Assembly (NCBI RefSeq): GCF_003182275.1
Contig: NZ_QGTR01000009.1
Span: 1 to 64,000 of the forward strand
Length of the DNA stretch: 64,000 nt
Source of the DNA: Hoeflea marina
GTDB lineage: Bacteria > Pseudomonadota > Alphaproteobacteria > Rhizobiales > Rhizobiaceae
Direction of reading: 5' to 3'
The notes below the pieces were generated by a model. The model did not search any database and was not told the DNA's origin. It worked only from the letters and a program-made list of their open reading frames with translations. Each line of letters starts with the position of its first letter. Position 1 is the stretch's first letter. A program made the position numbers and the translations under genes. Positions 26,399 through 38,255 of the stretch are shown in pieces.

Positions 26399-27256
26399 GT
26401 GCCTGTCATGACCGCCGAACATGCAACCGAACGGGCCAAAGCGCTCGTCGGCCCCAAGGAACTCGAAGCCTACCGCCGCGACGGCGCGGTCTGCGTTCGC
26501 CAGCTCTTCACGCCGCAGCAAGTCGAGACCGGCCGAATGGGGATCGATGAGAATATGGCCGTGCCGAGCGAAAGGGCCAATGTCGCCAGTTCTCCCGACG
26601 ATCCGGGCTACTTCATCGAAGATTTCTGCAACTGGCGGACCAATCGCCACTATCACGACTTCATCTTCAATTCCGCTGCGGCTGCCGTGGCGGGGCTCTT
26701 GATGGAGACCGCTCAGGTTCGTCTTTACCACGACCATCTTCTCGTCAAGGAGCCCAACACGCGGCAGAAGACACCCTGGCATCAGGACCAGCCCTACTAC
26801 AACATCGAAGGCCGGCAGAACTGCAGCATGTGGGCGCCCATGGATCCGGTGGCCCGGGCCGCGACACTCGAATTCGTGGCCGGTACGCATGAAGGCCCCT
26901 GGCTCATGCCGCGGTCGTTCCTGTCCAACGAGGCGAAATGGTTTCCCGATGGCGCGCTCGCCGAGCTTCCGGATATCGATGCCGATCGGAGCGACCATAA
27001 TATTCTCGGATGGGATCTCGAGCCAGGCGACGCGGTGTTCTTCCACATGCTGACGCTGCATGCGGCCGCGGGCGCCGGCGCCGGACGGCGGCGGGTCCTT
27101 TCCGTCCGCTTCCTCGGCGACGATATCCGTCACGCCCCGCGCCAGTGGAAGACTTCGCCCGCGTTTCCCGGACTGGAGGATGCCCTGCCTGCCGGCGCGC
27201 CGATGGATCATCCGCTCTTTCCGGTGCTCTGGACGAGGGAAAAGGACGCGGCTTAG
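26399..27256 (+). CDS. Phytanoyl-CoA dioxygenase (PhyH)-family Fe(II)/2-oxoglutarate enzyme
   Basis: A 285-residue cytoplasmic enzyme. GTG at 26399 is preceded by AGGAG at 7 nt, so I keep it; an ATG three codons later is the alternative. The iron triad is visible as H128-x-D130 (PWHQDQPYY) and H221 (LTLHAAAG), and R231/R232 can bind 2-oxoglutarate. Members hydroxylate small molecules from acyl-CoAs to ectoine. Substrate unknown; it is probably regulated by the divergent LysR, and the neighbouring transporter and PLP-enzyme genes suggest an amino-acid-derived substrate. Confidence 0.85.
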   Translation: MPVMTAEHATERAKALVGPKELEAYRRDGAVCVRQLFTPQQVETGRMGIDENMAVPSERANVASSPDDPGYFIEDFCNWRTNRHYHDFIFNSAAAAVAGLLMETAQVRLYHDHLLVKEPNTRQKTPWHQDQPYYNIEGRQNCSMWAPMDPVARAATLEFVAGTHEGPWLMPRSFLSNEAKWFPDGALAELPDIDADRSDHNILGWDLEPGDAVFFHMLTLHAAAGAGAGRRRVLSVRFLGDDIRHAPRQWKTSPAFPGLEDALPAGAPMDHPLFPVLWTREKDAA

Positions 27257-27521: not shown

Positions 27522-28949
27522 CTATGCCGCGGCTTCCGCCACGGCATGACCAAGGCCTCCGCGGCTCCATGTCCAGCGCAGCATCAGCCCGATCGCCACC
27601 AGCACGGCCGCGATCTGCACCGCGAAAACCGCCTGATAGGCATGGGTTGTTTCCAGCCCCGCCAGCTTGCTCGACTGGAAGACCACTTCAAGGATTTCGA
27701 TTCCCGCTTCGGTGCCGAACATGATGATGAAGGCGGGCGCGAGTGCGATGATCCTGTTCTGCGCCGCCATGCCGGCGACGATGCCGATCACGGAGGCTGT
27801 CGCCATGCCGATGCCGATGCTCGAGAGCACCTTGGAGACGTAGAACAGGCTGACATTGATGTCCTGGTAGGGGTAAAAATAGATCGCGACCATCCCGGCG
27901 AGCAGGAGCGGCAGCGACAGCGCCAGCATGTTGATGCCCCAGTTCGGATTGCGCACCAGCACCGCGCCCGTGCCAAAGACCGCAAGGATCTGGCTGGCAG
28001 CGGCCAGCGTGGCACGGTTGTCGATCAGGTCCGATGAACACAGATGCCGTACCAGATAGGCGGTGTCGTAGAAGCCAGTTGTCGGTATTTCCAGAACAAA
28101 GAGCATGCCCAACAGAAACACCGCCAGTGGCGGGACGGCCGCCGCGCCGCGGGTGAGATGCTTTTGCCTTGAATAGAGTGCCACACAGATGAGGATGAAC
28201 AGGCCGAGAAATGCCAGGCTGATCGGGCTGGCGATGCCGACAAATGAATTGGATGCGGTCCACGCCTCGAAGGCCAAGATGGCAATCACCAGCGGCAGGA
28301 CGCGCTTCCATGCGGGCGCTGCTTCCGGCGGGGCGGATGACGCAATTGCGGTAGCCTCGGCCCTGCCGAAGACGAAGGGAATGAAGAGGAGAAAGACCAT
28401 CGGCATCGCCGCCAGGATGAGGAAGTAATTGCCGGTGCCGATATCGAAGGCGACATACTTGACCAGTTGTGGGGTCAGCAGGAAGGCGATCGGCTGGGCC
28501 GATATCCAGACAGTCGTCAGCCGGGCGCGCGTGGCCGGATCCTCCTCACCGTTGATGGCGAGCTGCGCCAGCGGGGCGAAGAAGGCGACCGAAAATCCGC
28601 TGAAGGCGAAGCTGGCGATGACGACGATCTCGCGCACATCGAGTGCCGGGTCGAGCAGCATGGTGATGCCGACCATGGCGTAGCAGATCGTGGTGATGAT
28701 GGCGAAGATCACCGCCACCTTCCTGGCATTGCGCACAGTCAGCACGAAGGGCGCCACAGCAAGCGCGATCACCGCGCCGCCGAGCAGGAGTTCGATGAGC
28801 ACGTCGGTTTTCTCGACCGAGATGTTGAGAAAACTCGCGAATTCACTTTGCGACACCGATACGGTGGTGGTGCTGATCGATCGCAACCCGTTCCCGAGAA
28901 GCACGAAGACCGCCAGGATCAGACCCTGGAGCGCTAATAACCGTTTCAT
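27522..28949 (-). CDS. Polytopic membrane transporter (MFS-like), end of the multicopper-oxidase operon
   Basis: A 475-residue hydrophobic protein with about 12-14 predicted spans, starting with an N-terminal span (LLALQGLILAVFVLLGNGL). A polar loop of about 25 residues near 200-220 (RAEATAIASSAPPEAAPAWK) separates two halves, as in MFS proteins. No strict MFS signature motif (GxLaDrxGrkr) is evident, so the family call is tentative. It starts 7 bp after the GMC large-subunit gene stop and is the last cistron of the operon. It may import the oxidised product or export a factor needed by the periplasmic enzymes; both are inference. Confidence 0.65.
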   Translation of the reverse strand: MKRLLALQGLILAVFVLLGNGLRSISTTTVSVSQSEFASFLNISVEKTDVLIELLLGGAVIALAVAPFVLTVRNARKVAVIFAIITTICYAMVGITMLLDPALDVREIVVIASFAFSGFSVAFFAPLAQLAINGEEDPATRARLTTVWISAQPIAFLLTPQLVKYVAFDIGTGNYFLILAAMPMVFLLFIPFVFGRAEATAIASSAPPEAAPAWKRVLPLVIAILAFEAWTASNSFVGIASPISLAFLGLFILICVALYSRQKHLTRGAAAVPPLAVFLLGMLFVLEIPTTGFYDTAYLVRHLCSSDLIDNRATLAAASQILAVFGTGAVLVRNPNWGINMLALSLPLLLAGMVAIYFYPYQDINVSLFYVSKVLSSIGIGMATASVIGIVAGMAAQNRIIALAPAFIIMFGTEAGIEILEVVFQSSKLAGLETTHAYQAVFAVQIAAVLVAIGLMLRWTWSRGGLGHAVAEAAA

Positions 28950-28956
28950 GCTGGTC

Positions 28957-30561
28957 TCATTTCCCGAGGTTGTTGATCATGCGGCCGGCGGCGCGGATGG
29001 CGAGTGCCGCGATCGTCAGCGACGGTGCATTGACCGGGGCGGTGACGTGGGCGCTGGATCCGAGAATGTAGAGATTGCGGTGGTCGTGGGCGACGAGATC
29101 GGTGTCGACGACCGATGTCTTGGGATCCGTTCCCATCCGCGCCGTGCCGCCGATGATGGCGTTGGAGAGATAGGGATCGTTGCTTTCGACGTCGCTTGCG
29201 GCCATCGCCGAGAAGATCTGGCGATTGACCTCCATCGCCTTGGCAAGCCCGTTCCTTGTGTAGTCGTCCATCCGGAAGGTCACCTTCGGCTTGGGCACGC
29301 CCGAACTGTCGGCGACGTCGGCCAGTTCGATCCGGTTGTTCCAGTCCGGCAGCACCTCGGCCGAGGAATTGAGCCGGAGATGGCGGGCAACCTGATGGTT
29401 GACCTGGCGCGCCAGTTCCGCTCCGGTCATGCCCTTGGCGATCAGCTTCCTGGCAAGCCCCGTGGCGTCGGAATTGCCTGACCAGCCGCTGTTCATGAAC
29501 GATGTTCCGGCCGCCGCATATTCGCTGCGGAATTCGCCGTCGCGGAGTTCGAGAAGTCCGCCCGTCTGCTGCGGGCCGCGATAGGGATAGACCGGCTCGG
29601 GCATCATCGCCCAGACGTCCTGATTGGCCTGGGTCAGCAGGTACCGGCCGACCGCGCCCGATGAATTGGCAACGCCGTTCTGGGCGCCGTCCTGCTTCGA
29701 GTTCAGAAGCAGTCTCGGATTCTCGATCGCATGGCAGCACAGCGCAAAGACATCGCCTTCGACCCAGAAGGTCTCGCCATCGGGACGCCGAACCTTGACG
29801 CGGCTGACATTGCCGTCCGCTGCAAGTTCGATGAAGGTGACGAGCGAATCGGTGATGAAGCGCGCTCCCGCGGCCTCGGCCTTCTCCGCGTGCACCGACG
29901 CATCATATTTGGCGCCGATCGGGCAGATCGGCACGCAGGTGTTGTTGCCACAGCAGGCGGGACGGCTGTCGAATACTTCTGAATTGCGCGCATGCGAAAA
30001 CCGGCCGGCATGCAGGCCCAACTTGTCGAGCGCCTTGATCACCTGGTGATCCATGTAGCTGTGGGGGATCGGCGGCATCTGGTAGGGCGTCTCGCCGCGC
30101 GGCGCGCCCCAGTCGAAAGCAGGATCGCCGGCCACGCCCCAGCGCTTCTCGGCTTCCTCGTAGAAACCGACGAGCGACTGGTAGTCAATCGGCCAGTCCT
30201 CGGCCACGCCGTAGTCGGATTTCATGCGGAAGTCGGCCGGGCGCAGGCGGTCGGCAAAGCCGGTCCAGTGCCAGCTGGTGCCGCCATAGAGCCGCAGATA
30301 GGCGCCGATGAATTTGTCGGCGCCGCCCTGGACGTAGAAATCGTCATACTTGCCGTCTTCCGGATGCGGCGCGGAGGCGACACTGGGATAAGGCGATTGC
30401 GGCCCCTTGACCGGATTGTCGTAGAAAGTTCGCACATTGCTGGCGCGATCGCGGCGCGGACCGGCCTCGAGCACCAGCACATCGACGCCCTTCAGTGCCA
30501 ATGTATAGGCCAGATGGGCGCCGGCCATGCCGGAGCCGATGACGACGACGGAAGCGCGCAT
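28957..30561 (-). CDS. GMC-family FAD dehydrogenase large subunit with [3Fe-4S] cysteine motif
   Basis: A 534-residue flavoprotein. It starts with the ADP-binding fold VVVIGSGMAGAHLAY and ends with the GMC C-terminal domain (GGTARMGTDP, then LYILGSSAHVTAPVNAPSLT). Near residue 200 the run CCGNNTCVPIC gives C-x5-C-x3-C, the spacing that binds the [3Fe-4S] cluster in bacterial FAD glucose/fructose/sorbitol dehydrogenase complexes. The ATG at 30561 shares one base with the small-subunit stop; a longer frame upstream is rejected. It has no signal peptide and would be exported together with the Tat-signal small subunit. It likely oxidises a sugar or alcohol and passes electrons to cytochrome c. 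The substrate is unknown. Confidence 0.85.
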   Translation of the reverse strand: MRASVVVIGSGMAGAHLAYTLALKGVDVLVLEAGPRRDRASNVRTFYDNPVKGPQSPYPSVASAPHPEDGKYDDFYVQGGADKFIGAYLRLYGGTSWHWTGFADRLRPADFRMKSDYGVAEDWPIDYQSLVGFYEEAEKRWGVAGDPAFDWGAPRGETPYQMPPIPHSYMDHQVIKALDKLGLHAGRFSHARNSEVFDSRPACCGNNTCVPICPIGAKYDASVHAEKAEAAGARFITDSLVTFIELAADGNVSRVKVRRPDGETFWVEGDVFALCCHAIENPRLLLNSKQDGAQNGVANSSGAVGRYLLTQANQDVWAMMPEPVYPYRGPQQTGGLLELRDGEFRSEYAAAGTSFMNSGWSGNSDATGLARKLIAKGMTGAELARQVNHQVARHLRLNSSAEVLPDWNNRIELADVADSSGVPKPKVTFRMDDYTRNGLAKAMEVNRQIFSAMAASDVESNDPYLSNAIIGGTARMGTDPKTSVVDTDLVAHDHRNLYILGSSAHVTAPVNAPSLTIAALAIRAAGRMINNLGK

Positions 30562-31013
30562 CACATGGCTCCCGGCTGGGGAGCGTTTTCCCAATGGCCG
30601 AAGCCCGGGCCGCCGCAGGCCCCGGGCGCCGTTGCAAAGGTCACCGCCTGCCAGGACAGGCACCAGGGATAGTATTTCGCGCTGACAACGCCGTCGCGCG
30701 TCACTTCGCCGGTGTAGAGAAACAGCGCCACAAAGGCAGCCTGCGCCTTCAGTGCCGGATTGGCCTGGTCCAACCTGTCTCCGAGCGCGCCGCTGCCGAA
30801 TGCGCGGACAAATTCGACCTTGGCGGCCTGCCCGTAGGCCAGGTCGAACTCGTACTCTGCTGCCTCTATCAGGTAGGGGGACACTGAGGAAACGCCACCG
30901 ATCTGGCGGGCGATCTCGGCGAAGGCTTCATCCTGTCCGCCGAGCACCCGCGCCCGTGCAGCCCCCGGCAGCAGCGGCATCGCCGCCATGAAGATGCGGC
31001 GGCTGATGTTCAT
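30561..31013 (-). CDS. Tat-exported small subunit of FAD-dependent dehydrogenase (gluconate 2-dehydrogenase subunit 3 / SLDH-like)
   Basis: A 150-residue protein beginning with a twin-arginine motif (MNISRRIFMAAMPLL) and a short hydrophobic core. Length, the YPWCLSWQAVTFATAPGACG C-terminal region and the position immediately before the GMC large subunit match the hitchhiker small subunits of fructose, sorbitol and glucose dehydrogenase complexes, which carry the flavoprotein across the membrane and aid its folding. Overlaps: 4 bp with the C83 peptidase gene upstream and 1 bp with the large-subunit gene downstream. Confidence 0.75.
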   Translation of the reverse strand: MNISRRIFMAAMPLLPGAARARVLGGQDEAFAEIARQIGGVSSVSPYLIEAAEYEFDLAYGQAAKVEFVRAFGSGALGDRLDQANPALKAQAAFVALFLYTGEVTRDGVVSAKYYPWCLSWQAVTFATAPGACGGPGFGHWENAPQPGAM

Positions 31014-31705
31014 CGCGTCACCACCACAAGGCCGCGCAGCTTGTTGGAACCGGTGTCCGTGGTCGCCATCGCCTTGTAGAGATCGGCAATGGTCATCCAG
31101 ACGGGCGGATATTTGTATTTGGCGACATCGAGCACCAGCACCCGGTCGGTGTCCGCATCGTAGGCGGCGACCGGCGAGATATGGCCGTCACCCTTCTGGC
31201 CGATCGGCTTGCGCGAATAATTGATCACCAGCCGCTTCGCAGGATCGGCGAGTACCTTCTTCACCGTATCGCGAAGACCTGCTTCGTCGAATTCATCGGC
31301 ATGCCTGAACTCGGCGGAGACGCCGAGATTGGTGAAGAATTGGGCAAGCTGGCTCAGCACCAGGCCTTCATGCTCGACCATCGGATAGGACTTCACCTTC
31401 TCATTTTCCGCGCTGAAGATGTTCTCCTGGTTGAAGAACGGCCAGGGATAGAGCCGCTGCGCCACCGGGCGGTCGCCGCCGAGGCTGTTCATAACAGCTG
31501 CAATGGTTGCGGGTCCGCAAAACGTGAGGATGTGCTCGCTGTCGAGATAGCTGGCCAGCGAGAAATAGGGCGCGTCGAGCTCTGCGCCCTTGAACAGTTC
31601 CATGCCCCCGGCGTCGGGCAAATAGATCAGCTCGTCGGCGAAGGCGGCCACGGGTGCCAGGGCCAGCAGGCCAAAGCACACCGAATTCTTGAGAAATCGC
31701 TTCAT
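31010..31705 (-). CDS. Secreted phytochelatin-synthase-like cysteine peptidase (C83)
   Basis: A 231-residue protein with a Sec signal peptide (MKRFLKNSVCFGLLALAPVA, cleavage near AFA). The phytochelatin-synthase catalytic core is visible: C63 in LTFCGPATIA, H175 in GDGHISPVAAYD and D193 in VLVLDVAKYKYPPVW, spaced like the plant C-H-D triad. It lacks the C-terminal metal-sensing domain, as in prokaryotic PCS-like proteins, which mainly cleave glutathione or gamma-glutamyl peptides. An exported PCS-like protein inside an oxidase/dehydrogenase operon is unexpected; it may process thiols or help load copper, but this is inference. ATG overlaps the cytochrome gene stop by 4 bp. Confidence 0.88.
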   Translation of the reverse strand: MKRFLKNSVCFGLLALAPVAAFADELIYLPDAGGMELFKGAELDAPYFSLASYLDSEHILTFCGPATIAAVMNSLGGDRPVAQRLYPWPFFNQENIFSAENEKVKSYPMVEHEGLVLSQLAQFFTNLGVSAEFRHADEFDEAGLRDTVKKVLADPAKRLVINYSRKPIGQKGDGHISPVAAYDADTDRVLVLDVAKYKYPPVWMTIADLYKAMATTDTGSNKLRGLVVVTR

Positions 31706-32031
31706 TTCTGATCTCCAAACCAGGCCGACAGTGCGGCTATGTCATCATCGCTCAGATCCTTGGCGATCTCTTGCATGACGATGGCACGCCCGCCGCCGCG
31801 CAGGCCGCTGCGATAGGCGTTGAGGGTGTCCTGCAGATATTCCGGCTGCTGACCGGCGATGATGGGCACGGCAGACAGGCTCGGATTGCCGTCGGCGCCG
31901 TGACACGAAAAGCATTGCGACGCCCGGTCGGGCGGCGAGGCTGGGCCGTCCGCTCGTGCCGGCAGGGCGGAGCCTGCAATGAGAAACGTCAGCACCAGCC
32001 GGCGGACGGCGGTGGCGGAAATCCGATGCAT
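31702..32031 (-). CDS. Periplasmic class I c-type cytochrome
   Basis: A 109-residue mono-haem cytochrome. The ATG at 32031 has GAGG 7 nt upstream and lies 2 bp after the multicopper oxidase stop, so I prefer it to a TTG two codons earlier. Signal peptide to about ARA (residues 26-27), haem site C40-F-S-C43-H44 and probable axial M86 (RAIVMQEIA) fit the cytochrome c553 type. It is the natural electron carrier between the GMC flavoprotein and either the multicopper oxidase or the respiratory chain. Confidence 0.88.
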   Translation of the reverse strand: MHRISATAVRRLVLTFLIAGSALPARADGPASPPDRASQCFSCHGADGNPSLSAVPIIAGQQPEYLQDTLNAYRSGLRGGGRAIVMQEIAKDLSDDDIAALSAWFGDQK

Positions 32032-32033
32032 GC

Positions 32034-33575
32034 TCAATCCTCGATGTTCACATTGATCATCATGCCGGTGTCTTCATGCGGCAGGATGTGACAGTGCATG
32101 ACGTAGCGACCGGAAAAATCGGTAAACCGTGTGCGAAACCTGACCGTGCCCGCGGCAGGCACGGGAACAGTGTCCAGCCAGGGCTTGCGCGGATCGGGCA
32201 CGCCGTTGACATCCATCAGCTGGAACGGATTGACGTGGATATGCAGCGGATGCGGGAAGGGCGTGGTGTTGACCAGCGTCCACTCTTCCACGGCTCCGAC
32301 CTTCGAGACCACGTCGTCGCGGCGCGGATCGAAGGGCTTGCCGTTGATGGTGAATTCGGTGTCGTGGAAGAACCCCTTGACCTCGGACACACCAAGAATG
32401 AACTGCCGGCGTCCGGTTATCTCCTCATCGGTGATGTCGGTCAGGATGCTGTTCTTCGGCAACGGCCCGGTCGGCAGGTCGCGCCCGAACGGCACGTCGG
32501 CTGCAACCCGGCTGTCATCGGCGGCCAAAACAATGACTTCGGCCAGAAGAATATCGGGAAGCGGCTGCTTGCCCTGGCTGAAGGCCGGGCGATGCAATTC
32601 GTAGGTGCCGACTTTCGGCGCCTTGACCAGCAGATTGACGCGGTTGCCCGGCGCCAGTTCGACCTTATCGACCTGGGCCGCCTCGGGCAGCGGATTGCCG
32701 TCGCGGCCGACTTCGTGCAGTTCCAGGCCCTCCGCGGTCAGCGGCAGGAATTGCGCGTCGCCGGCGTGCAGCACCCGCCAGTGCTGGATCTCGCCCTCGC
32801 GCATGTAGATGCGCGGGCGGTAATTGCCGTTGATGAGGAAGTTGCGTTCTGCATCCAATGCCCAGATCGGCTCTTCGCTGGTCAGCAGCTTTTCGAGACC
32901 GGGAACAGGGGCCTGCACGACCATGACGCGTTCGACCATGGCTGCGATTTCCGGCACGCTGTCGAGTGCGCCGCCAATGATCGCCATGCCTGCCGCACCC
33001 GAGGCTACCTGGGCCGCCACCGATCCGTGCCGATGCGGGTGGTACCAGTAATTGCCTGCGGGATGATCCTGTGGGATCTTGACCACGTAATTGAAATGCT
33101 GGCCGGGATCGATGTTCAGATAGACATTGTCGCTGTTGCCGCGCGGGCTGACATGAAAGCCGTGATAATGGACATTGGTGGTGTTGAAGCGGTTGGGGGT
33201 GTTCGTGACCACCTGGTCTGTGTCCGGGTTTGGGGGCATCCGGTTCTCGAAGGCGACTTCGAGTGTGTCGCCGGGGGACAGGCGCAAGGTCGGGCCGGGC
33301 AACTGGCCGTTGAAGATGCGCAGCTTCGCCGGCCCCGAAGGCAGTTCCACCTCCGTCACCGCCATGTGGAGTTTTGCTCTCAGGCGGCCGGAAACGCTGC
33401 GCAGTTCGGCGGGATTGGCGAGATCGTCATCCAGGCCAAGCGGCGAGACCGCCGGCGTGACTTCGCTGGTGGCGGCGAATGCCGTGCGTGGAGAGGACAG
33501 GGAAAGCCCACCGCCGCCAAGGAGGGCAACCGTCGCGGACCGTTGCAGGAAAATTCGTCGTGAAAGAGCGTGCAT
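32034..33575 (-). CDS. Tat-exported multicopper oxidase
   Basis: A 513-residue three-domain copper oxidase, first gene of the operon. The N-terminus has a Tat motif (SRRIFLQRSATVALLGGGG). Copper ligands are all visible: HYHGFH (about 130), WYHPHRHG (about 172), HPLHIH (about 450) and HCHILPHEDTGMM near the end, which supplies type 1, 2 and 3 sites with a Met axial ligand. There is no Met-rich insert of the CueO type. Family members oxidise phenols, metals or reduced cytochromes and reduce O2 to water. The gene order suggests it may accept electrons from the adjacent cytochrome; a copper-detoxifying or laccase role is the alternative. Confidence 0.92.
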   Translation of the reverse strand: MHALSRRIFLQRSATVALLGGGGLSLSSPRTAFAATSEVTPAVSPLGLDDDLANPAELRSVSGRLRAKLHMAVTEVELPSGPAKLRIFNGQLPGPTLRLSPGDTLEVAFENRMPPNPDTDQVVTNTPNRFNTTNVHYHGFHVSPRGNSDNVYLNIDPGQHFNYVVKIPQDHPAGNYWYHPHRHGSVAAQVASGAAGMAIIGGALDSVPEIAAMVERVMVVQAPVPGLEKLLTSEEPIWALDAERNFLINGNYRPRIYMREGEIQHWRVLHAGDAQFLPLTAEGLELHEVGRDGNPLPEAAQVDKVELAPGNRVNLLVKAPKVGTYELHRPAFSQGKQPLPDILLAEVIVLAADDSRVAADVPFGRDLPTGPLPKNSILTDITDEEITGRRQFILGVSEVKGFFHDTEFTINGKPFDPRRDDVVSKVGAVEEWTLVNTTPFPHPLHIHVNPFQLMDVNGVPDPRKPWLDTVPVPAAGTVRFRTRFTDFSGRYVMHCHILPHEDTGMMINVNIED

Positions 33576-33710: not shown

Positions 33711-34865
33711 TCAGCCCAATCTCAGGGTCATGAGCAGATTGGAGAGCAGCGCGGTGCGCGGCGCCAGGCTTGAGACGAGGACATGCTCTTTGAAAGTATG
33801 CGCGCCGGCGCCGTCCGCGCCGAGGCCATCGAGCGTCGGCACGCCGAGCGCGGCGGTGAAATTGCCGTCCGAGCCGCCGCCGGTGGCGACCCCCTTGAGT
33901 TCCATGTCGAGATCGGAGGCAAGCTGTCGCGCGTGCTCGAAGAGCTGCCGGCCGGCCTCGGATGGCGGGAAGGGCGGCCGGTTGAGACCACCGGAGATCT
34001 CCAGTCGGATGTCCGGGTCGCCGGAGCCCAGCGCCTCGATCCGCCCGAGAATGTCGTCGGCTGCGGCTGCGTCGGGAAGCCGGACATCGACCAGCATGCG
34101 GCATTCGGCCGGGATCACGTTGCGCCCGGTGCCGCCCTGAATGGTGCCGACCGTCACTGTGACGCCGCGGTCGGGATCGTTCATATCCTCGAGCGCCAGC
34201 ACCAGCCGGGCAGCCTCGCGGATGGCGCTGCGCCCGTCCCCGGGGCGCATGCCGGCATGGGACGCACGGCCATGGACTGCAATGTCGTACATCGCCACAC
34301 CCTTGCGGGCGGTGACGATGCTGCCGCCGTCGCGGGCGGGCTCCATCACGAGCGCGAAGCCGGCGCTGCGGGCAAGTGCGTCGATCACCGGGCGCGAGCT
34401 TTTGCTGCCCATCTCCTCGTCGGGGACGAAGAGGATCTCCACGGGCAGCATGCCTGCCGGTTCGCGCGCCTGGGCCAGTCCGAGCGCGGTGAGCGCCATC
34501 AGCGCCCCGGATTTCATGTCGTAGACGCCCGGCCCGTACAGCCGGTCGGCTTCGCGACGGAGCGGCAGCTCCGCACTGAGCGTGCCGGCGGCGTGCACGG
34601 TGTCGAGATGGGCGAGGACGAGGATGCCCTTCCTCTCCGGCGTCGACCGGGCCCCGCCGCGCACGATGAGCGTGTCGCCGAAGCCCATCGTGCCGGCGAT
34701 GCGCTCGCTTGCAAGCCCCAGGCCTGCGGCGGCGACCTGGACATGAGCGACCATGCGGTTGACCGCGGCGGCGTCCGGCGTGGGACTCTCGATACCGACC
34801 CAGACCTTCAGATCGGCAATGAGCGCGGATTCGTCGATGTCCGCAGCCGTCAGCAGGCCGGTCAA
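33711..34865 (-). CDS. M20 family metallo-carboxypeptidase / amidohydrolase
   Basis: A 384-residue enzyme, last gene of the long operon. No ATG fits near the upstream gene end; TTG at 34865 overlaps the acylase stop (TTGA) and begins the recognisable fold (MTGLLTAADIDESALIADLK), so I choose it. Metal-site residues: H86-x-D88 (LVLAHLDTVH), D116 (GPGVYDMKSG) and E150/E151 (FVPDEEMGS), with a late His in GAHTFKEH. The pattern fits the carboxypeptidase G2/glutamate carboxypeptidase branch. It probably cleaves an amide or peptide product released by the upstream acylase. Confidence 0.85.
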   Translation of the reverse strand: MTGLLTAADIDESALIADLKVWVGIESPTPDAAAVNRMVAHVQVAAAGLGLASERIAGTMGFGDTLIVRGGARSTPERKGILVLAHLDTVHAAGTLSAELPLRREADRLYGPGVYDMKSGALMALTALGLAQAREPAGMLPVEILFVPDEEMGSKSSRPVIDALARSAGFALVMEPARDGGSIVTARKGVAMYDIAVHGRASHAGMRPGDGRSAIREAARLVLALEDMNDPDRGVTVTVGTIQGGTGRNVIPAECRMLVDVRLPDAAAADDILGRIEALGSGDPDIRLEISGGLNRPPFPPSEAGRQLFEHARQLASDLDMELKGVATGGGSDGNFTAALGVPTLDGLGADGAGAHTFKEHVLVSSLAPRTALLSNLLMTLRLG

Positions 34866-37285
34866 GATGCGGGACCGCCTGCGGCACGATTCGAAGCAGG
34901 CAGCAGCCGGATGCGAGTGACGGTTTGCGCCTCGATCAAAGCGTTGCTGTAGAGCATCGGGACATAGGTCCCGCCGGACCAACCCGCGGCGAGATCGGCA
35001 TAGTGCGGCGAGCGCGGGTCGCCGGACTGTCCCGGGGTGTTGATGCAGACGGAATTGTCCCAGTCGCCGACATCCATCACCAGCCGCACGGAGGCGCCGG
35101 CGGTGACGCGGAAATCGCCGAGCCGATAGCCGGCATGCATCACAGTCGAGCGGCTGCCGCCCATCGGCAGCGGACCGACGTCCCAATCCGCGGCCCCGGC
35201 CTCGCCGCGACTCGCGCGAACCCGGCTGGTGGCGTGTTCGAATGTGGCCTGGTGCAGCTTGCCCCAGGCCCAATCCTCCGGATCGGCGCCGAGCCGCTTG
35301 AGGCAGTCGGCAAAGCCGGCTTCCAGCGTGGCCAGAAGCAGTGCGTCGCGCTCGATCGGGGTCCAGTGAAGGGCGCTCGCTTCCGGCGCCGAAAGAAGGT
35401 CGAGCAGCGTGTCGACATCGCCCGGCAGGAGCAGCGGCCGCACTTTTTCATCAGCGAAGCGGGCGAGCAGCGCCGGGCGCAGATGCTTCATCCACCAGAC
35501 CTCGAACAGCGCCGCGGCGCCGCTGCCTGCCGCCAGGCAATGGTCCCAGCCGTCCAGCAGGGCGGCGGCGCGAGCCTGATGTCCGGCGAGACCGGAGCGC
35601 CCGGCCAGCGTTTCGGCAAGCACGAAACAGATGACCTGGGCCGGACGGGAATGCACATCCGTCTGCAGCGCGCAGGCCGCGGCCACCGAATGCCTTTCGT
35701 CGGCGGCGAGCACCGCCTTGATTCGCTCCGCCCGACTGGGCTCGGTCCATTCATGGCCGATGGTCGGTGCATCGGCGGGCCGATCGGTGGGCAGGTTCAT
35801 CTCGTTGGCGGTGGCCACGAAGCCTGCCTCGGGATTGATGCTGCGCGGCAGTTGGTCGGCAGGCAGGAAGCCCTGCCATTCGTGGCTGCCGTCGCCCGGA
35901 ACGGGCAGCAGGCCCTGCCAGCCGTCGCGCATCGGCGTGAAGCCGGCGGTGAACCAGCCGGTGTTGCCTGCGGTGTCGGCGCAGACATGATTGACCGACG
36001 GCGAGCCCCAGGCGCCGAGTGCCTCGCCGAACTCGGCGACACTGCCGGCGCGCATCGCGCTCAGGCTGCCGAGATAGGCAGCCGATCCGGGAAAGGCCCA
36101 GACCGATCGCAGCGCGATGACCGTGCGCTTCTCCGCATCCTCGTGCAGCACCGGGCCATGGCGGGTGTAGGAGAGCGTGAGCGTCTGCTGCGCATAGCCC
36201 CTGACCTCGAAAGGCTCCTCAACGCGCCGGATCGCCTCCCAGCCGTCGAGATGGCGGTAGAGGTCCGGTTCGCCGGGCTTGGTCTCGTAGACATAGACGT
36301 CTTCCTGGTCCATGCCGAAAATGGTGAGGCCGAACGCGGTGGTGCCGTTGTGGCCGAGCGAGACGCCCGGCGCGGTGGGCTCGCCGGTGCCGATGGCGTT
36401 GAAGCCGGGCGCTTCGAGATGGACGAGGTAGCGCAGCGACGGCACGGCGTGGGCGCGGTGCGGGTCGCTCGCCAGGATCGGCCGGCCGGTCTGCGTGCGG
36501 GCGCCGCCGACCACCCAGTTGTTGGAGCCTTCCTCGCTGACGGCGCGGACCACATCGCCCAGATCGGTGACGTCGACCCAGTCCCATGCCTTATCAAGGG
36601 TAGCCTCGAGCCGCTCCGGCTCGAATGTGACGGGAGCGGTGGCGAGCTTGAACAGCCTGAGTGCCGCGATCGGAATGTCGGCAAGCACCACGCCATCGGC
36701 CACCTCGAGATCAACCGGCGGCTCGATCTTGGTGCGCAGCAGATCGGTGTCGGCGCCGGCGAGCGCCATCACGTTCGCGCGCAGGATCTCGGAGACGCCG
36801 TTGCGGGTCAGAGCGTGGCTACGGATGCGCACAACGTCCTCGGGCTTCCAGCGCGAGGGCGCGGTACCGAAGACGGAAAATTCCGGCGGCAGGCGTTCGG
36901 GCTCTGCCTCGCAGAGCGCCAGATAGGCATTGATGCCGGCGGCAAACGCGCTGCAGATCTCTTCGGTGTCGGGGGCATAGGACGCCCATTCCGGCGCCAT
37001 CCGGCCCTGGTAGAGGAAATGCCGGGCCGCATGGTCCTGCGCCAGGTAGCCGGGACCGAAATCGGCGGACAGCAGACCCAGGCCGCGCTTGCGCCAGAGG
37101 TCGATCTGCCAGAGCCGGTCGCGGGCCGCGTTGAAGCCCTGGGTGAAGAACAGGTCTGCCTCGCTGCCGGCGCGGATGTGCGGAATGCCCCAGCGGTCGA
37201 TTCGGATTTCGGTGGGAGACTGGAGGCCGTCGACGGTCAGGGTCTCGTTGGCGATGGTCTCGGTCATGGGGGTACTCTCAGACAT
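34862..37285 (-). CDS. Penicillin acylase family Ntn-hydrolase
   Basis: A 807-residue precursor of the S45 acylases. The alpha-chain part (1 to about 253) includes RDRLWQIDLWRKRGLG. The autocleavage nucleophile S254 is in EEGSNNWVVGG, and the beta-chain holds ASDPHRAHAVPS and GHNGTTAFGLT. Length fits the heterodimeric acylases. No signal peptide is visible, unlike periplasmic penicillin G and AHL acylases, so it is probably cytoplasmic and acts on imported substrate. Starts at 37285 or 37267 are possible. It overlaps the ABC ATPase end by 8 bp and the M20 gene by 4 bp. Which acyl group it removes is unknown. Confidence 0.88.
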   Translation of the reverse strand: MSESTPMTETIANETLTVDGLQSPTEIRIDRWGIPHIRAGSEADLFFTQGFNAARDRLWQIDLWRKRGLGLLSADFGPGYLAQDHAARHFLYQGRMAPEWASYAPDTEEICSAFAAGINAYLALCEAEPERLPPEFSVFGTAPSRWKPEDVVRIRSHALTRNGVSEILRANVMALAGADTDLLRTKIEPPVDLEVADGVVLADIPIAALRLFKLATAPVTFEPERLEATLDKAWDWVDVTDLGDVVRAVSEEGSNNWVVGGARTQTGRPILASDPHRAHAVPSLRYLVHLEAPGFNAIGTGEPTAPGVSLGHNGTTAFGLTIFGMDQEDVYVYETKPGEPDLYRHLDGWEAIRRVEEPFEVRGYAQQTLTLSYTRHGPVLHEDAEKRTVIALRSVWAFPGSAAYLGSLSAMRAGSVAEFGEALGAWGSPSVNHVCADTAGNTGWFTAGFTPMRDGWQGLLPVPGDGSHEWQGFLPADQLPRSINPEAGFVATANEMNLPTDRPADAPTIGHEWTEPSRAERIKAVLAADERHSVAAACALQTDVHSRPAQVICFVLAETLAGRSGLAGHQARAAALLDGWDHCLAAGSGAAALFEVWWMKHLRPALLARFADEKVRPLLLPGDVDTLLDLLSAPEASALHWTPIERDALLLATLEAGFADCLKRLGADPEDWAWGKLHQATFEHATSRVRASRGEAGAADWDVGPLPMGGSRSTVMHAGYRLGDFRVTAGASVRLVMDVGDWDNSVCINTPGQSGDPRSPHYADLAAGWSGGTYVPMLYSNALIEAQTVTRIRLLPASNRAAGGPAS

Positions 37286-38255
37286 GGTGGCAGGCGACTG
37301 TCGATCCATCGGCGCGCGACGTCAATTCCGGTCGCACGCGCGAGCAGATTTCCGTGGCCAGCGGGCAGCGGGTGTGGAAGGCGCAGCCTGGGGGAATGTT
37401 GGACGGGCTCGGAAGCTCGCCAGTGAGGATGAGGCGTTCGCGGGAGCGCTGCAGCCTCGGATCGGCTTCCGGCACCGCCGACATCAGCGCTTTCGTATAG
37501 GGGTGCTTCGGATTGGCAAAGAAGGTGTCGCGGTCGGCGATCTCGACGAAGCGGCCCAGATACATCACCACGACGCGGTCGCAGATGTGACGGACGACGG
37601 AGAGATCGTGGGAGACGAAGAGATAGGCCACGCCGGTACGCTTCTGCAGCGCCACCAGAAGGTTGAGGATCTGCGCGCGGACCGAGACGTCCAGCGCCGA
37701 AACCGGTTCGTCGCAGACCACCAGTGCCGGCTCCAGCGCAAGCGCCCGGGCAATCACCACGCGCTGTCGCTGGCCGCCGGAGAACTGGTGCGGGTAGCGA
37801 TCGGCATGTTCGGGGCGAAGGCCGACCTCGGTCAGCAGCTTGGCGATGCGGCTCTTCAGCGCCTCGCCGCGGGCGATGCCGCGAACGATCAGCGGCTCGG
37901 CAATCGCGGCGCCGATTGTCGAGCGCGGATCGAGCGAGAGAGCGGGATCCTGGAAGATCATCTGCACCTTGCGGCGGATGTCGTTGAGCGCCTTGCCGCG
38001 GGCGCCGACAACCTCCTCGCCGGCGATGCGGATGCTGCCCTCGACCGGCTGCTGCAGCCCGACGATGGTGTTGGAAAGGGTCGACTTGCCGCAGCCCGAT
38101 TCGCCGACCAGCGCCACGGTCTCGCCGGCGGCGATGTCGAGCGAGACACCGTTGACCGCCTTGACGACGAATTGCGAGCGGCCGAACAGTCCGGACCGGC
38201 CGTTGAAGTGGACCGCGACATCGCGGATTTCGAGGACCTGGTGCGTGTCGCTCAT
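37278..38255 (-). CDS. Peptide-type ABC transporter ATP-binding protein (OppF/DppF type)
   Basis: A 325-residue ATPase: Walker [10 protein letters not shown], signature FSGGQRQRV, Walker B LVVCDEPVSALDV, and the C-terminal oligo/dipeptide domain with GCAFHTRCPLATEIC. The ATG at 38255 overlaps the OppD stop (ATGA); the longer frame to 38771 is a shadow of OppD. It pairs with the preceding ATPase to drive the two permeases. Confidence 0.93.
   Translation of the reverse strand: MSDTHQVLEIRDVAVHFNGRSGLFGRSQFVVKAVNGVSLDIAAGETVALVGESGCGKSTLSNTIVGLQQPVEGSIRIAGEEVVGARGKALNDIRRKVQMIFQDPALSLDPRSTIGAAIAEPLIVRGIARGEALKSRIAKLLTEVGLRPEHADRYPHQFSGGQRQRVVIARALALEPALVVCDEPVSALDVSVRAQILNLLVALQKRTGVAYLFVSHDLSVVRHICDRVVVMYLGRFVEIADRDTFFANPKHPYTKALMSAVPEADPRLQRSRERLILTGELPSPSNIPPGCAFHTRCPLATEICSRVRPELTSRADGSTVACHHV

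Follow-up and report, generated by a model that had tools for sequence, protein, structure and literature searches.

Six nearly abutting genes lie on the minus strand at positions 27522-33575 of a 64,000-nt stretch of the Hoeflea marina genome (contig NZ_QGTR01000009.1; we call this whole stretch the window and use its forward-strand numbering throughout). They encode a laccase-type multicopper oxidase (MCO), a monohaem cytochrome c, a phytochelatin synthase (PCS)-like peptidase, the small subunit and the flavoprotein of a GMC dehydrogenase, and an MFS-type transporter. We asked if this odd assembly is a chance arrangement or a unit that is inherited as such and, if the latter, what it might do. 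A preliminary description, drawn from the nucleotide sequence alone, had proposed a periplasmic oxidase complex independent of the membrane chain, in which electrons would run from a substrate over FAD, [3Fe-4S] and haem c to the copper oxidase and O2, and had proposed that a lack of recurrence of the linkage in other genomes would refute it. We found that the six genes, in the same order, are common to scattered soil and marine bacteria, and that this cassette is a co-inherited redox unit of exported type, of the fructose dehydrogenase (FDH) or glucose dehydrogenase (GDH) kind, and probably a transferable one. We see about an even chance that it is an exported oxidation module of FAD, [3Fe-4S] and cytochrome c whose active site has been rebuilt, in which the MCO is here the probable electron sink and the PCS and transporter act on the same pathway.

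The preliminary description had the neighborhood right, with all of the genes in place and on the minus strand (Table 1). Taking the ATG at 32031 as the cytochrome start gives the 2-bp gap after the MCO stop codon that it reported. The cytochrome and PCS genes, and the PCS and small subunit genes, overlap by 4 bp each, the small subunit and GMC genes overlap by 1 bp, and 7 bp separate the GMC gene from the transporter gene. The transporter is the final gene, as had been stated; the range given for the unit, ending at 28957, left it out. The Tat-like and Sec-like export signals were assigned by eye.

Table 1. Genes of the cassette in the window, in order of transcription.
Predicted product	Position	Strand	Features
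Laccase-type MCO	32034..33575	-	513 aa; Tat-like signal, N-terminus SRRIFLQ; Pfam Cu-oxidase_2/3 and Cu-oxidase
Monohaem cytochrome c	31702..32031 (ATG) or from TTG 32037	-	CFSCH; Sec-like signal; Pfam Cytochrom_C
PCS-like C83 peptidase	31010..31705	-	231 aa; Sec-like signal; PF05023
Tat-type small subunit (hitchhiker, gamma-type) of GMC dehydrogenase	30561..31013	-	SRRIFM; invariant Cys133
GMC flavoprotein, [3Fe-4S]-type	28957..30561 (from ATG)	-	Pfam GMC_oxred_C; Cys 203/209/213 and Cys204
MFS-type transporter	27522..28949	-	475 aa; closes the unit; MFS by homologues

Does the arrangement recur? Exact peptide patterns of the PCS, which reach close relatives only, retrieved 19 loci from a genome collection, and the six proteins were then placed in them by tblastn. 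All six genes were colinear on one strand, in the order MCO, cytochrome, PCS, small subunit, GMC, MFS, in 14 of the 19; these full cassettes come from Neorhizobium (1), Thalassospira (3), Rhizobium/Agrobacterium (3), Kiloniella (6), and a Rhodospirillales metagenome-assembled genome (MAG; 1). Three more loci, from Sneathiella, Comamonadaceae and Polaromonas MAGs, are interrupted by contig ends and retain the part that fits. The last two, from Mesorhizobium, hold a PCS gene (L034 9758-10690; L035 8087-8977) without the other five, L035 having only 2.2 kb of downstream sequence. Just upstream of both PCS genes we noticed by eye frame-broken, cytochrome-like pieces (APIIAGQQPLYL... and QEIVKDAADADIKALADWVGAQQ in L034, ...KDAADADIKALADWVGAQQ in L035), and we read these loci as decayed cassettes in which the PCS stayed open.

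Further full cassettes were found on the Salipiger plasmid NZ_CP014600; by GMC search in genomes G594, G454, G551 (the same contig as L038), and G967 (PCS identical to that of L024); and by transporter search in G1010, a genome of the same genus as Hoeflea marina. Identity between G1010 and the window runs from 33-34% (small subunit, MFS) up to 63% (MCO, GMC). The transporter search, the only one by which absence of the cassette within the genus was assessed, matched three of 18 genomes: the window's own, G1010, and G1003, which has the transporter alone. Because the order recurs in the 14 loci, on the Salipiger plasmid, in the GMC-found genomes, and in G1010, it is beyond chance, and the lack of recurrence that would have refuted the linkage of PCS, oxidase and dehydrogenase was not seen. 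Its patchy occurrence together with the plasmid copy suggests horizontal transfer.

How common is the cassette? At E <= 1e-120, the GMC protein was matched in 7 of 385 genomes of a class sample (cassette in the window's own genome, G594, G454, and G551; a variant in G631; no cassette in G374 and G555), and in 5 of 398 genomes of a phylum sample (cassette in the window's own genome, G454, and G967; none in G874 and G935). These surveys scored three candidates per genome and their counts are lower bounds, which puts the full cassette in at least about 1% of sampled genomes. PCS matches at E <= 1e-10 occurred in 19/297 genomes of the order, 15/385 of the class, and 9/398 of the phylum sample; the three samples overlap and were drawn around the window's genome. 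Some rows of the comparisons are near-duplicates (L074 is the same contig as L038; the L076 PCS is identical to that of L024; L090, L096, and L097 repeat L073, L074, and L072). Removed before counting were L039 (PCS truncated, without residue 57; GMC not compared), L037 (GMC truncated), L105 (short match, unaligned), and L089 (same genome as L076).

The co-inheritance of the genes shows in the distances between their proteins. For all six proteins, the pairwise distances among 18 cassettes (those of the window and of 17 loci) are correlated, with r of 0.83-0.98, and none of 500 permutations reached the observed correlation for any of the 15 gene pairs. The permutations ignore relatedness, so the correlation speaks for shared history and is not a test of rates. 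Mean distance was lowest for GMC (0.26) and MCO (0.30) and highest for the small subunit and the MFS protein (0.49 each). When 21 loci were clustered, flanking families that occurred in three or more of them were common only to Thalassospira loci or to Kiloniella and its near MAGs. No widespread regulatory motif emerged when 17 regions upstream of the MCO gene were searched for exact palindromes of 6 bp and a small set of named patterns; some start codons in these regions came from tblastn ends.

We then considered what the dehydrogenase might do. In the PDB the GMC protein is closest to B. cepacia GDH (BcGDH; 6a2u, E 2.8e-114 over residues 2-527), followed by FDH (7w2j). An extract of the BcGDH report (PMC6719666) has C212/C218/C222 binding the [3Fe-4S] cluster, C213 bridging to the small subunit, and His476/Asn519 as the likely catalytic pair; it expects either His/Asn or His/His as the working pair of GMC enzymes. 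The C-x5-C-x3-C motif seen in the preliminary description (Cys203/209/213) aligns with the three BcGDH ligands and is kept in all spanning cassette rows; the adjacent Cys (Cys204 in the window) and the His aligned with BcGDH His105 (His98 in the window) are kept as well. At the positions of the catalytic pair, the window protein has His476 replaced by Ile469 and Asn519 by Ala512 (numbered from the ATG). Ile and Ala/Pro occupy these positions in 23/23 cassette GMCs, a count that includes the G631 variant (L075) and near-duplicates, and the G1010 protein shows the same motifs; BcGDH and all five non-cassette relatives (L077-L081, 40-46% identical) retain His and Asn. The cassette GMCs share His505 and Asn511, in a loop H-[VIL]-[TS]-x-P-[VI]-N-[AP]-P-[ST]-L-T, along with other private residues. 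The change of His476 to Ile sits in a clear alignment block. Since both the redox relay and the unit as a whole have been preserved, it is natural to see here an active site that was rebuilt, not a dead enzyme.

The partner proteins are less easily placed. No Pfam family matched the window's small subunit; PF12318 (FAD-SLDH) was matched by one of 16 aligned homologues (1.5e-10). A structure model (pLDDT 69, with poor stretches at 11-25 and 124-150) had BcGDH and FDH small subunits as its top three Foldseek matches (E 0.92-1.1, probability 0.69-0.77), and no Foldseek match at E <= 0.001. The small-subunit profile gave five weak matches among PDB sequences, the best to S20 at 0.011, which we did not believe. 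The RR motif, gene order, fold ranking, and PF12318 together, none strong alone, suggest a Tat hitchhiker small subunit. The transporter has no Pfam match in the window and matches MFS_1 (PF07690) in 14/17 rows of its alignment; it has the same place in all 14 full cassettes. It had no match among phage records, and its profile had none in the PDB at E <= 0.01.

Could this simply be an ordinary sugar dehydrogenase operon, of the FDH, GDH or glucoside-3-dehydrogenase type, with passenger genes? The GMC protein and small subunit do resemble those of GDH and FDH, and the Salipiger homologue of the latter is annotated 'sugar dehydrogenase complex small subunit'. However, the six genes have remained linked across several orders, the invariant Ile stands where the catalytic His would be, and the unit, the only part of the genome searched for one, encodes no multihaem membrane cytochrome subunit, just a 111-aa protein with a single CxxCH. 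We consider such an operon very improbable.

The PCS-like protein is altered as well. The role of some bacterial PCS-like proteins is unsettled. This one matches PF05023 with 178.1 bits (cut-off 24.9) and is closest in the PDB to Alr0975 (3.9e-40). The C63/H175/D193 triad that had been picked out in the preliminary description aligns with the Alr0975 active site, and is kept in every spanning cassette row of a 43-row alignment. Arg165, Lys198, and Tyr199 are likewise kept in spanning cassette rows and correspond to Arg173, Lys206, and Tyr207, named as cavity residues of NsPCS in an extract of a PCS study (PMC3855540). According to the same extract, a Gln that forms part of the oxyanion hole is strictly conserved among the PCS compared, and its Q50N variant is inactive. 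The window protein has Glu57 at this position, which is Gln64 of Alr0975/NsPCS and Gln50 of AtPCS1.

How closely does Glu57 follow the cassette? The 43-row alignment has Glu in 27 rows (the window, the versions of the unit with and without MCO, and both Mesorhizobium loci), Gln in 14 other loci and Alr0975, and no residue in one. Fifteen further rows add 12 Gln and three Glu, the latter from cassette genomes already counted. Altogether Glu is found in 27/27 cassette-clade rows versus Gln in 26/26 other rows and Alr0975; the PCS of G631 (by eye) and G1010 also have Glu. No other cassette gene was found in the flanks of 23 of the 26 Gln-type rows (G573, G650, and G361 were not fetched); some of these flanks are short, L109 being a 3.5-kb contig and L042 stopping 0.6 kb beyond the PCS. 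A quick tree was built from 50 PCS rows (omitting L039, L096, L097, L090, L023, L028, L095, L104, and L106). A branch with an SH-aLRT of 96 sets its 26 Glu rows apart, along with a long-branch Gln row, L091. At its fewest the tree implies at least two changes at position 57; we think that the exchange of Gln for Glu probably happened once and was kept since. The exchange may alter PCS chemistry: by analogy, the Gln19Glu change in papain reportedly gave nitrile hydratase activity, although that report was absent from the titles and abstract starts among the literature matches listed.

With the His/Asn pair missing from the GMC protein and the oxyanion Gln from the PCS, two points that the preliminary description overlooked, neither enzyme should be assumed to do the chemistry standard for its family. 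Two enzymes that have swapped residues used by their relatives for catalysis suggest that the cassette probably acts on something not yet known, and the altered sites make glucose or fructose an unlikely one.

Two other versions of the unit bear on the MCO. The first, in L044 (G098) and L052 (G120), has no MCO and encodes a PCS, a divergent cytochrome c, a 487- to 497-aa CxxCH protein, a GMC protein 60% identical to the window's, a small subunit, a Kelch-like protein, and an MFS_1 transporter; pieces of this set lie on separate or short contigs in G181 and G224. A search of all four genomes (97-98% complete for G098 and G120, 85-86% for G181 and G224) for the MCO gave distant matches only, 33-47% identical over short and 27-33% over longer stretches. 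In the second, in G631 (L075), a GMC protein (52%), a small subunit, and a weakly matching MFS protein (29%, 63 bits) adjoin a different MCO (34-38% identical). GMC and small subunit are thus common to all three versions, and probably so is the MFS protein; the MCO is exchangeable or absent.

The MCO-less version also brought proteins that we note in passing. One family of about 490 aa with one CxxCH near the C-terminus accompanies it (L044 10987-12450, L052 7678-9171, L087 3925-5592, L088 9073-10872, the last a diverged paralogue); the members scanned matched nothing in Pfam or NCBIfam, the PDB gave just a chance-like match (E 0.74), and a structure model of the 487-aa member (pLDDT 33) was discarded. 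The weakly Kelch-like protein, of about 510 aa, lies at L044 14753-16282 and L052 3912-5471. The gene directly after PCS, at L044 8560-9663, encodes a member of the phosphatidylserine-decarboxylase family (PF02666, 153 bits) whose N-terminus resembles a signal.

Because the PCS is retained where only distant MCOs are found, it probably does not serve the copper of the MCO, which weakens the suggestion in the preliminary description that it protects copper sites (two of the four genomes are the 85-86% complete ones). The same observation bears on the idea of thiol/copper protection by PCS and MCO as a pair, the former hydrolyzing periplasmic glutathione and the latter handling copper, with an unrelated dehydrogenase beside them. 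The intact triad and cavity residues would suit this pair. The Glu at the oxyanion position does not, nor do the flanks of the 21 clustered loci, which have no family (of those in three or more loci) common across genera (their genes were not individually annotated), and we regard the pair as unlikely.

The MCO itself has its copper ligands complete. Its closest PDB sequence is Thermus laccase; the four copper motifs (HYHG, HPHRHG, HPLHIH, and HCHILPHEDTGMM) are present in the window, and all 21 loci compared conserve the His, Cys, and Met ligands, with only Y/F, L/I, I/V, and T/L changes between them (L074 repeats L038). It falls below the curated NCBIfam cut-offs for CueO (134.8 of 525 bits) and CopA (93.3 of 478.95 bits). 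The cytochrome is closest to cytochrome c4/c554 in the PDB, and its CxxCH is kept in 17/17 loci examined. The electron path proposed in the preliminary description is plausible as far as the cytochrome. The step from there to the MCO and the proposed independence from the membrane chain are conjectural, and a version of the unit without an MCO exists. The MCO might instead be a laccase or metal oxidase on the same pathway, acting on, for example, a phenolic or Cu(I), while the cytochrome feeds an ordinary terminal oxidase. Intact copper motifs, laccases as nearest solved relatives, and a version that loses the MCO and keeps the cytochrome all fit this alternative. Against it, though not decisively, each of the 14 full cassettes has the MCO gene immediately before that of the cytochrome, and the distances of these two proteins and of GMC are correlated. 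We take it to be a substantial possibility, less probable than the oxidation module with the MCO as sink.

For that oxidation module we propose the following scheme, with its cofactors, export, and relay modeled on homologues. The GMC protein and small subunit would leave the cytoplasm together by Tat. The flavin would oxidize the substrate in a rebuilt site, in which the canonical His/Asn is gone and the new invariant His505 and Asn511 lie in a neighboring loop. Electrons would pass from flavin to [3Fe-4S] to the small monohaem cytochrome c, and the MCO would be the likely final acceptor, reducing O2, in this version, with another acceptor in the MCO-less one. The PCS-like hydrolase, with its altered oxyanion position, may cleave or trim the same substrate or product (perhaps a gamma-glutamyl-cysteine compound or other small amide), and the MFS protein may carry substrate or product across the inner membrane. 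The step from cytochrome to MCO, the substrate class, and the direction of transport are conjecture. A more specific form, in which the relocated His/Asn of the GMC protein oxidizes a gamma-glutamyl-cysteine-type or similar thiol/amide cleaved by the Glu-oxyanion PCS, and the branch from cytochrome c to MCO is a soluble periplasmic terminal oxidase, is doubtful as a whole.

Several observations weigh against the oxidation module. The MCO-less version shows that the rest of the unit does not need the MCO. In G631 there is no cytochrome or PCS beside the GMC and MCO genes; its PCS lies on another contig and has one in-frame TAG. The lone PCS genes of both Mesorhizobium loci still carry Glu57, and the lone transporter of the genus relative G1003 is 35% identical to the window's, so parts of the cassette can be uncoupled. 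The PCS and GMC signature rows are not independent events, because each signature probably arose once. The loop segment of the GMC protein is of equal length in BcGDH, which allows a compensated one-residue shift placing Asn511 on Asn519; the Asn change could thus be a register shift rather than a loss. The fold evidence for the modeled small subunit is weak.

Outside of the cassette, the upstream genes at 33711-37309 (-), named by eye, are an M20-type peptidase and a penicillin-acylase-like protein, with G+C of 0.68-0.70 (2-kb steps) versus about 0.63 in the cassette. Downstream, at 26399-27256 (+), lies a gene that by eye resembles phytanoyl-CoA dioxygenase. A 43% identical dioxygenase-like gene near the G594 cassette (L072 14228-15013) was its sole match among 28 loci searched and may be due to chance; a similar-looking dioxygenase gene (by eye) beside the G631 PCS had no match in that search.

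No paper on this cassette was found among the open-licence literature matches listed, a scope that leaves out most subscription journals; nor did these matches include papers on the genetics of glucoside-3-dehydrogenase. The replacement of both the GMC His/Asn and the PCS oxyanion Gln in one conserved six-gene unit makes it a sharp test case for catalysis by rebuilt sites. Should the MCO indeed accept the electrons of the cytochrome, periplasmic dehydrogenases would have in it a soluble end point at which O2 is reduced, and the cassette would place some bacterial PCS-like proteins in a defined pathway.

How does the unit compare with known systems? With BcGDH (6a2u, 8grj, 8hdd) and Gluconobacter FDH (7w2j, 8jej) it shares the GMC fold, the [3Fe-4S] cysteines, a Tat small subunit, the His aligned with BcGDH His105, and a separate cytochrome c. 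Unlike theirs, a membrane subunit with three haems, the cassette cytochrome is monohaem and of exported type; the cassette also lacks the catalytic His/Asn pair and adds an MCO, a PCS, and an MFS protein. Glucoside-3-dehydrogenase of Rhizobium-type bacteria likewise combines a GMC protein, a small subunit, and a monohaem cytochrome c; its unit is not known to include an MCO or PCS. Like Nostoc Alr0975/NsPCS (peptidase family C83), the cassette PCS is a half-size PCS domain with a Cys-His-Asp triad and the cavity Arg/Lys/Tyr, but it has Glu for Gln64 and sits in an operon with a dehydrogenase and an oxidase. The MCO has all four copper motifs of bacterial laccases and MCOs (Thermus thermophilus laccase, 2xu9; CueO); it differs in scoring far below the CueO and CopA cut-offs and in having its gene next to that of the cytochrome c in each of the 14 full cassettes. 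The unit thus appears to be a variant of the FDH/GDH kind that probably works like one, while departing from it in two defining features, a multihaem membrane subunit within the unit and the His/Asn pair.

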